Shown: piece after piece, positions 53,136 to 55,958 of the stretch
Layout of the letters: every line of letters begins with the position of its first letter
How positions within the stretch are numbered: the stretch's first letter is position 1
NCBI RefSeq assembly: GCF_002367995.1
Contig: NZ_AP018207.1
Coordinates: 7,364,199 to 7,428,198, forward strand
Origin: Calothrix brevissima NIES-22
GTDB taxonomy: Bacteria; Cyanobacteriota; Cyanobacteriia; Cyanobacteriales; Nostocaceae
Direction: 5' to 3'
Length of the DNA stretch: 64,000 nucleotides
Translations under genes and position numbers: made by a program
The notes under the pieces: model-generated
Database searches by the model: none
Told to the model about the DNA's origin: nothing
The model's input: the letters and a program-made list of their open reading frames with translations, nothing else

Positions 53136-53789
53136 TTAAGCAGTCTGTTCTAACAACTGAATATTAGAGAAGATAAATTCCTGAGTTGTAACTTTTCCTT
53201 CAATCTCAGTCTTAATTTCCCGGCGATTGAGAATGAAATACTGACCAACTTTTTCATATTCATCGGTAAACTCACTTCTACCACCCTTTTGTTCGCCTGT
53301 TGCCGGGTCATGGTATACCGAGTCGTAGGTGTGAGACAAATAGCCTTCGCCAGTTTGGTGACTGCTAAAGGTATCAATGGTCACAAAAGTACCGTGAACC
53401 AAACGATGAACGTGGCTAACTTCATTATTGCGGACTTTATATTTATCGCCCTCAGCCTTACCACCAACTAAAATTTCTACAGAACCATCGGCTGCGGTAG
53501 CACCATAGCTGAAAGTATTAGCACTGTGGGTATCTTCAAAAGCACGGCGGACACGGTGAATCGCGATTTCCCAAGCTTGATATTGAATTGCTTGCTTGGC
53601 TTGATCGTCCGATGCATCTGAAACTTCCGCCTTGAGATTAGCGCTAACGACTACCTTCGCTGTAGCCACTTGACCGTCATTTTTCAAGGTAACATCAGCT
53701 GTATAGCCAGGAAAATCCTTGTCCCAAGTGTAACGATTTTCATAAGCAGCCCGGAAAAGTTCCTGAGCAGAAATTTGTGTAACTGTCAT
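53136..53789 (-). CDS. DUF3386 family protein
   Basis: Read from the ATG at 53789 (218 residues, MTVTQISAQELFRAAYENRYTW); a longer frame to 53879 adds 30 residues with no ribosome site and extends towards the IsrB element, so I reject it. The sequence FRAAYENRYTWDKDFPGYTA and the later VHRLVHGTFVTIDTFS resemble DUF3386, a cyanobacterial and plant family of unknown function with a lipoprotein-sorting-like beta fold. There is no signal peptide. The promoter lies in the DNA between this gene and the IsrB element, less than 110 bases, so the insertion may affect it. Confidence 0.75.
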   Translation of the reverse strand: MTVTQISAQELFRAAYENRYTWDKDFPGYTADVTLKNDGQVATAKVVVSANLKAEVSDASDDQAKQAIQYQAWEIAIHRVRRAFEDTHSANTFSYGATAADGSVEILVGGKAEGDKYKVRNNEVSHVHRLVHGTFVTIDTFSSHQTGEGYLSHTYDSVYHDPATGEQKGGRSEFTDEYEKVGQYFILNRREIKTEIEGKVTTQEFIFSNIQLLEQTA

Positions 53790-53892
53790 GTGTTTACCTA
53801 TAGCCAGTAGTGATATTAGCGTTTTTGCTTTGCTTGGTATTAGCATAGAAGTAATTGTGAAGCTCCGCATAGTCCCCAACTGGGTACACTTT

Positions 53893-54113
53893 TCACTAAC
53901 CCCGCTCTAAAAGGTGCGGGGATTGCTTAGACCAATCTCGGCAACGCAAGAAGTGAATACCGCACCATCGACACAGTTTAGTACGCACTTCCAGATACTT
54001 CCCTAGTCTGGAATATCTGCAAGCCTAATTGGTTTAGGCGTTGGGTAAAGCCAAGACATCTTAGCTGTGTTGCGGGAAGGGACTTAAACAAGTAATTGGG
54101 TTATACCAAAAAA
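53893..54113 (+). ncRNA. candidate omega-RNA scaffold of the IsrB element
   Basis: The 220 bases before the isrB start are GC-richer than the surroundings and can fold into several hairpins: CCCCGC/GCGGGG (53900-53921), CCAGA/TCTGG (about 53991-54014) and GCCTAA/TTAGGC (about 54022-54038). IscB and IsrB proteins use an RNA encoded directly upstream, whose guide comes from the DNA outside the left end. The guide would therefore read from the DUF3386 side, just before about 53893. Exact ends cannot be given by eye. Function is inferred from position and family only. Confidence 0.5.
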
Positions 54114-55208
54114 ATGCGAGTACCTGTAGTAGACAAAGATCACCAACCACTAATGCCCACGACATCCGCAAGGGCGAGAAAATGGGTCGCATCCGGTAAA
54201 GCGATAAAACGCTGGTCAGATTGTGGACAATTATATGTCCAACTGACTTGTGTTCCATCTGGACGGGAAACCCAAGATATTGTCATTGGGATTGACCCTG
54301 GCAAGAAGTTTTCTGGGATTGGTGTTCAATCTGCCAAGTTTACTCTTTATACAGCACATCTAATTTTGCCATTTCAGGCAGTGCGCGATCGCATGGACGC
54401 AAGGCGATTAATGCGGCGTGGTCGCAGAGGAAGAAGAATCAACCGCAAGGTTGATTTTTCAAAACGCGCACACCGCCAAAAACGCTTTGATAATCGTCGC
54501 CAAGGTAAACTCCCACCTTCAATTCGCGCCAATCGTCAACTTGAACTCAGAATTGTCTGTGAACTATGTCAACTCTACCCAGTTTCAGAAATACGGTACG
54601 AATATGTCCGGGCTGATGTAGACCTCACCAGTGGACGTAAAAAAGCGAAATCCGGTAAAGGCTTTTCACCTGTAATGGTCGGGCAGAAATGGATGTTAAG
54701 TCAGCTAGAACTGTTTGCCCCAGTAGCTAAAGTTGAAGGATACCAAACTGCATTGACTCGTAAATACTTGGGTCTAGTCAAAAACAAGGTAGACAAATCC
54801 AAGTCAGAGTTTAACACTCATGCAGTTGATGGTGTAGCAATCGCCGCATCAGCTTTTGTGAAGTATCGAGAATATCACAAAGCTCATGTTGATGGTGCTG
54901 ATTGGTTTGGGAGGGTCGTGATTACGCCTGCGGTTTTTAAGGTGATTCGTCGTACTCCCTACTCTCGTCGCCAACTTCATCTAATGCTTCCGACAAAGGG
55001 TGGGCTACGTCGTAAATACGGCGGATCTACAACCCGTCATGGTTTACGCAAGGGTGATTTAGTTTACTCGCCCAAGGGAATCGGGTATGTGTCAGGAGAC
55101 ACTGAAAAACAAATATCTGTCAGCGACGCTAACTGGAAACGGTTAGGGCAGATTGTTTCTAGAAAAGTACAGTTAATTCGTCGTTCCAACGGATTAATTG
55201 TTGCCTAG
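54114..55208 (+). CDS. isrB: IsrB-like RuvC protein (RNA-guided nickase family)
   Basis: Read from the ATG at 54114 (364 residues, MRVPVVDKDHQPLMP); an in-frame TTG at 54096 is within the RNA region. The PLMP motif opens the protein (PLMPTTSARARKW), followed by RuvC-I VIGIDPGKKFSG (Asp61), an Arg-rich bridge helix (RRLMRRGRRGRRINRK), RuvC-II IRYEYV (Glu163) and RuvC-III THAVDGVAIA (His236, Asp239). Only about 70 residues separate RuvC-II from RuvC-III and no HNH motif is seen, so it is IsrB rather than IscB. Family members cut the non-target strand under the guidance of an upstream RNA. All catalytic residues look intact, so it is probably active. Confidence 0.8.
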   Translation: MRVPVVDKDHQPLMPTTSARARKWVASGKAIKRWSDCGQLYVQLTCVPSGRETQDIVIGIDPGKKFSGIGVQSAKFTLYTAHLILPFQAVRDRMDARRLMRRGRRGRRINRKVDFSKRAHRQKRFDNRRQGKLPPSIRANRQLELRIVCELCQLYPVSEIRYEYVRADVDLTSGRKKAKSGKGFSPVMVGQKWMLSQLELFAPVAKVEGYQTALTRKYLGLVKNKVDKSKSEFNTHAVDGVAIAASAFVKYREYHKAHVDGADWFGRVVITPAVFKVIRRTPYSRRQLHLMLPTKGGLRRKYGGSTTRHGLRKGDLVYSPKGIGYVSGDTEKQISVSDANWKRLGQIVSRKVQLIRRSNGLIVA

Positions 55209-55268
55209 AAGTATTGTAAAGCCGCCCTCCGCGTTGCTAAAGGGCGGGGTTTTCAACCCATTTTTCTG

Positions 55269-55958
55269 ATGACTAATTCTCTTCATGCTGCATTTGCTGC
55301 GATCGCTAACGTCGGCAATGAGCAAGAGCTAAAACTCGCGCTCACGGACAAAATTAGCGAACATTTTGGCGTGCAACATTGGGGTATCTCTTTCATAGAT
55401 GACCAGTCAAAGACTGAGATTGATGTTTCCGATATTCCCGCCGTCTGCTTACAAGGTAATCCCATCGGACGCTACGTAGTTGAGCGTCATGCACCCGCGC
55501 ACGAGCAATTAATCCTATCAGAACAAGATTGGAAGCATATTTGTCCGCGTCACGATCACGAACATGTAATGACAGGCCCCATAGTCTGTGACGGTCGTTT
55601 GGTAGGAACCCTCAACCTAGCTCGCGCTCAAGGTAGTCCACCCTTTGACGGTAACGATTTAGCCGATTTGAGTGCTTTATGCATTCACATTTCCGCAAAA
55701 ATTGCCACCTTGCGGGCAAAACCCCAAATTATCAAACCCTCATTACCTAACCCCCTCACACCAAGGGAGTTAGAAATTGCTGAATTAGTCGCTCAAGGCT
55801 TAACCAATGGGGAAATCGCCGCTCGGCTGTGGATTAGCCAAAATTCTGTCAAGCAAGCCCTCAAACGCATGTTTCGTAAGCTTGGGGTGTCAGCGCGGAC
55901 AGAAATGGTGACAAAGCTGCATTCAATATCTTCCCCTCAGAGCAAACAGATTAATTAA
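55269..55958 (+). CDS. GAF-domain LuxR-type transcription regulator
   Basis: A 229-residue protein. Residues 5-150 look like a GAF sensor (ELKLALTDKISEHFGVQHWG, TGPIVCDGRLVGTLNLAR) and residues 165-225 are a LuxR/NarL helix-turn-helix (LTPRELEIAELVAQGLTN, IWISQNSVKQALKRMFRKL). It may be a one-component regulator that senses a small ligand. The ATG is only about 10-20 bases after the right end of the IsrB element, so its own promoter and RBS region have been replaced or displaced; 'tttttctg' precedes the start and no clear ribosome site is seen. It may now be transcribed from inside the element. Confidence 0.82.
   Translation: MTNSLHAAFAAIANVGNEQELKLALTDKISEHFGVQHWGISFIDDQSKTEIDVSDIPAVCLQGNPIGRYVVERHAPAHEQLILSEQDWKHICPRHDHEHVMTGPIVCDGRLVGTLNLARAQGSPPFDGNDLADLSALCIHISAKIATLRAKPQIIKPSLPNPLTPRELEIAELVAQGLTNGEIAARLWISQNSVKQALKRMFRKLGVSARTEMVTKLHSISSPQSKQIN

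Follow-up and report, generated by a model that had tools for sequence, protein, structure and literature searches.

A 64,000-nucleotide stretch of the Calothrix brevissima NIES-22 chromosome (contig NZ_AP018207.1; the whole stretch is called the window here) carries a complete 1,377-bp element of the RNA-guided nickase IsrB, at window positions 53892-55268, whose right end abuts the start codon of the next gene. We propose, with a probability of about 0.6, that this element has separated, by scarless insertion, the start codon of a gene for a LuxR-type regulator with a GAF domain from its 5' leader, and that its target-adjacent motif (TAM) doubles as that start codon. Elements of this family show a strong preference for insertion at ATG(A) start codons, which suggests that start codons serve them as landing sites. 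An earlier reading of the same DNA from its letters alone (the sequence-only reading) had recognised the IsrB element and made no mention of a right end abutting a start codon, a feature that is common in the family.

Insertion at start codons across IsrB-type elements

The comparison covers 141 loci: 47 from genome contigs, the window, four short copies in the same genome and 89 found with a short-copy query that matched 151 of 388 genomes of the order (29 loci returned and 60 picked from the match list, chiefly from its stronger entries). Of these loci 126 had a recognisable right end, giving 112 distinct sites. Among the 15 loci without one, L123, L131, L158 and L183 end at a contig edge or no more than 49 bases from one, and the others (L056, L057, L058, L060, L061, L067, L072, L145, L161, L172 and L186) are in part a divergent group. 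At 82 of the 112 sites (73%) the ATG at the junction opens an open reading frame (ORF) of at least 60 amino acids, and at 71 the ORF reaches at least 100 amino acids. Divided by kind, the 60-residue threshold is reached at 53/72 sites with isrB, 26/36 short elements and 3/4 of the miniature inverted-repeat transposable elements (MITEs) of the window's own genome. A narrower right-end pattern recognised 89 of the 141 loci, with 80 distinct sites, 59 of which open an ORF of at least 60 amino acids.

The background was counted in three ways and lies between 5 and 19%. Host ATGA outside called gene bodies opened an ORF in 80 of 517 cases (Fisher 1.8e-32 against the IsrB-type sites, although sites and tails share ancestry, and this and the other P-values and shuffles given below overstate their independence). 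When all host ATGA were taken, internal methionine codons included, 496 of 2,656 did so, and a rough count by genes, setting 66 genes of at least 100 amino acids with ATGA near their start against 1,164 ATGA outside genes, gave about 5%. As a frame control, the junction ATGA was read from its third base, which opened an ORF at 2 of the 112 sites, the frame of the second base being stopped by definition. The pattern that defines the 112 sites requires ATGA, and the commonest tail was therefore also matched alone, free of that demand; the next four bases were ATGA in 52/52 matching loci.

Insertion at internal methionine codons was considered as the source of these ORFs and is ruled out by in-frame stops upstream. 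The left end was located at 53 sites, 42 of them with a gene, and at these 42 the in-frame stretch open upstream of the junction had a median of 10.5 codons and reached at least 50 codons once (median 9 and 1/39 when L042, L049 and L051, whose left ends are probably misplaced, are excluded). The ORFs belong largely to recognisable families: 23 of 30 drawn at random from the 81 besides that of the window had a Pfam match at 1e-5 or better, among them ATP synthase A chain, Ycf4, a nitrogenase-type oxidoreductase, ketoacyl synthase, thioredoxin and two homocysteine S-methyltransferases. Ten further ORFs, chosen non-randomly and named from their N-termini, all matched a fitting family (ribosomal S16, ATP synthase epsilon, ChlI-type Mg chelatase, DapB, argininosuccinate synthase, UbiA, amidase, galactokinase, epimerase and ATP-sulfurylase).

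Empty sites and the ends of the element

Six same-genus genomes (G002-G007) were used for empty-site comparison. The window site and the sites of three of the short copies (L002, L003, L004) are empty in all six, and there the flanks join without scar or duplication, the left flank running directly into the ATG; the fourth copy, L005, shows the same kind of junction, readable in one relative only. All five own-genome insertions examined are accordingly scarless, and insertion is motif-specific. At the four sites with a gene, 24/24 relatives share the ATG at which the ORF begins, and L005 has no gene there. The predicted guide of the window element, whose length of 20 is taken from PMC9581776, is identical at 20/20 positions in five of the six empty sites, with one mismatch in the sixth. 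Over all 25 empty sites compared, the 20 bases to the left of the element are identical in 15, L003 and L005 differing at 3-4 positions.

These comparisons set the ends of the element. The sequence-only reading had drawn them at 53893..55258, which was roughly right; the empty sites and the four short copies move them to 53892 and 55268. Its expectations that the boundary would take in the upstream hairpins and that the guide would lie just left of the element agree with the start at 53892 and with the match of the left flank to the empty sites. The right end contains a hairpin with arms at 55222-55228 and 55241-55247, then a small hairpin at 55247-55259, and closes with the tail ATTTTTCTG, which is identical in the four short copies and has near variants in related loci. 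Those copies, of 292-296 bp, retain only the left end with the omega-RNA and the right end. The parts of the element and its neighbours are collected in Table 1.

Table 1. Parts of the IsrB element and adjoining host features, in window positions
Feature	Position	Strand	Basis or remark
Predicted 20-nt guide, GTCCCCAACTGGGTACACTT	53872..53891	+	Host leader directly 5' of the element; putative guide role
Left end and omega-RNA scaffold (198 nt), begins TTCAC	53892..54089	+	HEARO covariance match, empty sites
isrB, 364 amino acids from ATG, plus stop	54114..55208 (coding 54114-55205)	+	Homology, alignment
Right end, 60 bp	55209..55268	+	End set by empty sites; tail in four short copies
ATGA, presumed TAM and start codon of the next gene	55269..55272	+	Empty sites, tail matches
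Host gene, LuxR-type (GerE) regulator with GAF domain, 229 amino acids	55269..55958	+	Starts directly after the element
DUF3386 host gene (from its ATG), divergent	53136..53789	-	102 bp of intergenic DNA up to the element

The element has no TnpA, and the seven Y1_Tnp matches of the genome lie elsewhere, none of them linked to it. One explanation for the choice of site leaves IsrB out of it: the element would be mobilised by another enzyme, perhaps a Y1 TnpA supplied in trans, that recognises TCAT on the complementary strand together with accessible single-stranded DNA near translation starts. The Y1_Tnp matches outside the element, the constancy of the right-end motif and the fact that copies lacking isrB share the bias (29/40 for short elements and MITEs together) would all fit this account. 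However, a motif of four bases cannot by itself select start codons, and we hold targeting of this kind to be distinctly unlikely.

Two further copies in the same genome, L012 and L013, are orphan HEARO copies (149.5 and 140.2 bits) that carry an IsrB-type right end and adjoin ORFs of 169 and 101 amino acids starting at ATGA; they look like mixtures of IscB-type and IsrB-type ends.

The IsrB protein and its omega-RNA

The identity of the protein, proposed from its letters, was borne out by a match to DtIsrB (8dmb) over residues 2-361 (E 7.6e-40) and to Pfam RRXRR (E 2.1e-48). The PLMP N-terminal domain (RVPVV...PLMPTT) and the Arg-rich bridge helix RRLMRRGRRGRRINRK that the sequence-only reading had pointed out are conserved in the IsrB alignment, and the RuvC residues that it had named (D61, E163, H236 and D239) are invariant in all 22 aligned IsrBs, so that no catalytic residue is lost. 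It had also counted about 70 residues between RuvC-II and RuvC-III, too few for HNH; the spacing from E163 to H236 is 72 residues, and searches with family profiles found no HNH family match in the protein. The IscB model NCBIfam NF040563 scored 98 bits against a cut-off of 175, the match being confined to residues 5-171. An alternative TTG start at 54096 would give a protein of 370 amino acids. The genome contains this one IsrB and two weaker matches that are IscB-like, and the related IsrB loci are cyanobacterial.

A structured RNA upstream of the gene had likewise been foreseen, and its structure is conserved in homologous loci. The Rfam HEARO model (RF02033) matches at 53892-54089 over model positions 1-211 with 45 bits (E 3e-7), a full-length match that is nonetheless under the curated gathering score of 83. 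RNAalifold predicted 48 pairs from 39 homologous left ends, and 37 of these are preserved despite substitutions of both partners in one or more of the 39 sequences. Judged from these sequence comparisons, the window element is complete and probably functional as an IsrB mobile element of the obligate mobile element-guided activity (OMEGA) kind.

Comparison with IscB/HEARO elements

A scan of 146 genomes from the same phylum gave HEARO matches in 28, in 23 of them over the cut-off. Our set of 88 HEARO loci consists of 60 fetched, 24 from the scan of the phylum and four from the window's own genome (L226-L230 were unused). A junction was found in 77 of the 88, 11 being without one, and these give 76 distinct sites, 60 with ATGA and 16 with GTGA, the latter permitted for one group of tails only. 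An ORF of at least 60 amino acids opens at 29/76 (38%), or at 29/68 when eight sites whose stretch ends too soon are left aside; the bias towards start codons is therefore above background but below that of the IsrB type (Fisher 2e-6 on the 76). Twelve IscB plasmids were examined, chosen for spread among 40 listed matches from 78 records. In three the junction ATGA opens the next coding sequence (CDS), which is parB in both Trichormus and Deinococcus and an HNH gene in Anabaena; in six the next CDS starts elsewhere and in three there is no nearby co-directed CDS.

Survivorship alone could be the reason for the start-codon bias: elements would insert at any ATGA, copies inside genes would be lost and those at start codons would persist, with no capture of a promoter and with a right end that happens to make a tolerable leader. 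Insertion beside a start does leave the protein intact, and the weaker bias of IscB/HEARO elements (29/76), which have a similar motif, is what differing tolerance might give. Yet ATGA outside genes outnumber candidate starts (1164 against 66, with 80/517 opening an ORF) and should be at least as harmless; tolerance alone would therefore not readily yield 73%. We consider it unlikely that survivorship is the whole explanation.

Two side observations concern these elements. On Trichormus plasmid C (L300:1023-2599) and a Deinococcus plasmid (L305:997-2617), which belong to two different phyla, iscB separates parA from parB and lies immediately upstream of the parB start codon. Four genomes (G118, G135, G161 and G242) have at least 14 HEARO matches each, many without an adjoining iscB, and non-autonomous guide-RNA elements seem to be numerous in some of these genomes.

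Phage copies

In the Microcystis phages LMM01, MaMV-DC, -CH01, -CH02 and -DH01, which represent one insertion site, the CDS start annotated by the depositors is the junction ATG.

These phages also show an arrangement of their own. In LMM01 (L194:2178-2320) and in L195 and L199-L201, a tandem array of left-end-like units lies upstream of the omega-RNA of the phage IsrB. It contains 4-5 units, counting the start of the omega-RNA itself, each made of TCACTAACCCCGCCCTAAGGCG and about 4-16 variable bases, and the number and order of units vary between phage strains; the array may act as a CRISPR-like source of guides or may consist of simple tandem repeats. Among 146 loci scanned, such arrays occurred solely in the two Microcystis phages that were included, and a search of IMG/VR with one exact pattern had no match. 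In MaMV-DL01 and -DL02 (L298:1500-2350 and L299) an ORF of 192 amino acids that by eye resembles a helix-turn-helix (HTH)-HNH endonuclease takes the place of the interior of the IsrB element. Remnants of the omega-RNA and isrB flank this ORF, and the right end and annotated start codon are as in the sister phages.

Right ends as possible leaders and a proposed model for start-codon homing

Among the distinct 16-nt tails, 17 of 83 of the IsrB type (2.6, sd 1.6, in shuffled tails) and 22 of 50 of the HEARO type (3.8, sd 1.7) have a Shine-Dalgarno (SD)-like 4-mer 4-16 nt upstream of the ATG; examples are AAAGGAGTTTCG and, from the HEARO set, GGAGGTCTAG, each followed directly by ATG. Such tails are suggestive at most because they share ancestry. 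SD motifs are not enriched in the leaders that the target genes have natively (7/42 against 5.5 in shuffles), and the idea that the elements target an SD sequence plus ATG was dropped because of this. Consensus scans of the right end for a terminator (three terminator-like sites against 1.8 in shuffles) and for a promoter (fewer promoter-like sites than in shuffles) led to the rejection of both.

Another possibility is that the omega-RNA, with or without IsrB, is a leader element that serves the host by regulating the gene downstream. Its place in the leaders of conserved genes and the SD-like motifs of some right ends would be in keeping with such a role, but the genes beside the insertions are a scatter of unrelated ones, and the close relatives compared lack the element at the five own-genome sites; this fits selfish spread better than a regulatory role that is kept, and makes the proposal very improbable.

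We favour insertion between leader and start codon with the TAM doubling as the latter. The element, its ends, the covarying RNA, the intact RuvC residues, the match of the guide flank to the empty allele and the start-codon preference are shown by the comparisons above; the causal step that follows is inferred. The complex of IsrB and omega-RNA would nick copies of this site that lack the element, with the start codon serving as TAM, and nicking of the empty allele would keep or restore the element there; retention or restoration through nicking of empty sites has been proposed for related elements. The guide lies outside the element at the 5' end of the RNA and should therefore need a host promoter, which would transcribe guide and omega-RNA together. 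With the start codon as TAM, the element would thus land in a transcribed leader that supplies the 5' guide in the correct orientation. The right end would substitute its own translation-initiation region for the leader displaced, and housekeeping genes may therefore tolerate the insertion. More broadly, IsrB elements, and IscB elements more weakly, might form a class of RNA-guided mobile DNA that uses the start codon as TAM, homes to the junction of leader and coding sequence, borrows a host promoter for an external guide and spares essential genes through a portable translation-initiation end, a generalisation that we offer tentatively and at slightly less than even odds.

Several observations weigh against the favoured explanation. 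At 30 of the 112 sites no ORF of 60 amino acids opens at the junction ATG, and the shared ancestry mentioned above reduces the force of the statistics. The commonest tail is U-rich and without an SD sequence, resembling a weak terminator, and folding at the right end in the window is ordinary (z -0.41). The six same-genus relatives, empty at the window site, have ATGG there where the own genome has ATGA, and DtIsrB failed to cleave ATGG according to PMC9581776; either a change at 55269-55272 in this lineage preceded the insertion or recognition here does not require the fourth base. Among five IsrB plasmids examined from 13 records, the annotated start lies at the junction in one, the Dolichospermum plasmid, where it begins an HTH gene; the Acaryochloris plasmid has GTGA after the element end and no co-directed gene there, the annotated start on the Calothrix plasmid is 7 bases beyond the junction, and on Nostoc pNsp_b and the Scytonema plasmid the element end could not be placed. 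None of five IMG/VR loci opens 60 codons at a recognised junction; these were kept out of the 112, three having ATGA tails by eye (3, 2 and 57 codons open) and two being unplaced.

If the proposal holds, the question of how an omega-RNA with its 5' guide in host DNA is transcribed would have a simple answer in the host promoter, and the ATG/GTG look of the IsrB/IscB TAM would have a reason. The insertions also constitute a natural set of leader replacements in conserved genes, and the contrast between IsrB-type (73%) and IscB/HEARO (38%) sites makes the question directly testable.

Relation to known systems

The window element is of a known kind. According to PMC9581776, guide and target of IsrB pair over 20 nt and the nick falls in the non-target strand; the motif preferred by DtIsrB is NTGA/TTGA, and NTG is recognised by CwIsrB (Crocosphaera watsonii) and DsIsrB (Dolichospermum). 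These two had already been assayed there, so that the sequence-only reading's description of cyanobacterial IsrBs as little studied is right only in part; C. watsonii IsrB loci are among those compared here. The window element shares with DtIsrB, CwIsrB and DsIsrB the PLMP start, the split RuvC residues, the bridge helix, the lack of HNH, the upstream omega-RNA and an NTG(A)-type motif. Motif and 5' guide are supported by genomic evidence, and the ATGG of the relatives at the window site still fits NTG. Short copies lacking isrB and exact insertion at start codons are shown here, whereas the accessible text of PMC9581776 is silent on genomic insertion sites.

The literature searched contained no account of start-codon insertion by IscB or IsrB, and, among the papers listed, the one with IscB in its title (PMC13180657) uses 'start codon' for ORF curation; the start-codon habit is new within that literature, and its novelty is limited accordingly. 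Outside that search stands the work of Weinberg from 2009, which reportedly describes HEARO insertion before ATGA/GTGA and may already remark on start codons. HEARO/IscB/ISC elements have the same layout, a homologous RNA and ATGA/GTGA at the right end, but the window RNA is below the HEARO cut-off and the HEARO start-codon bias is weaker (29/76 against 82/112). IscB carries HNH, unlike the IsrB of the window. The TnpB elements of IS200/IS605 likewise combine an RNA-guided nuclease with an IS-like element and a motif beside the insertion. TnpB guides, however, lie 3' of the element and are readable from inside it, whereas the guide of the window element is 5' and should need a host promoter.
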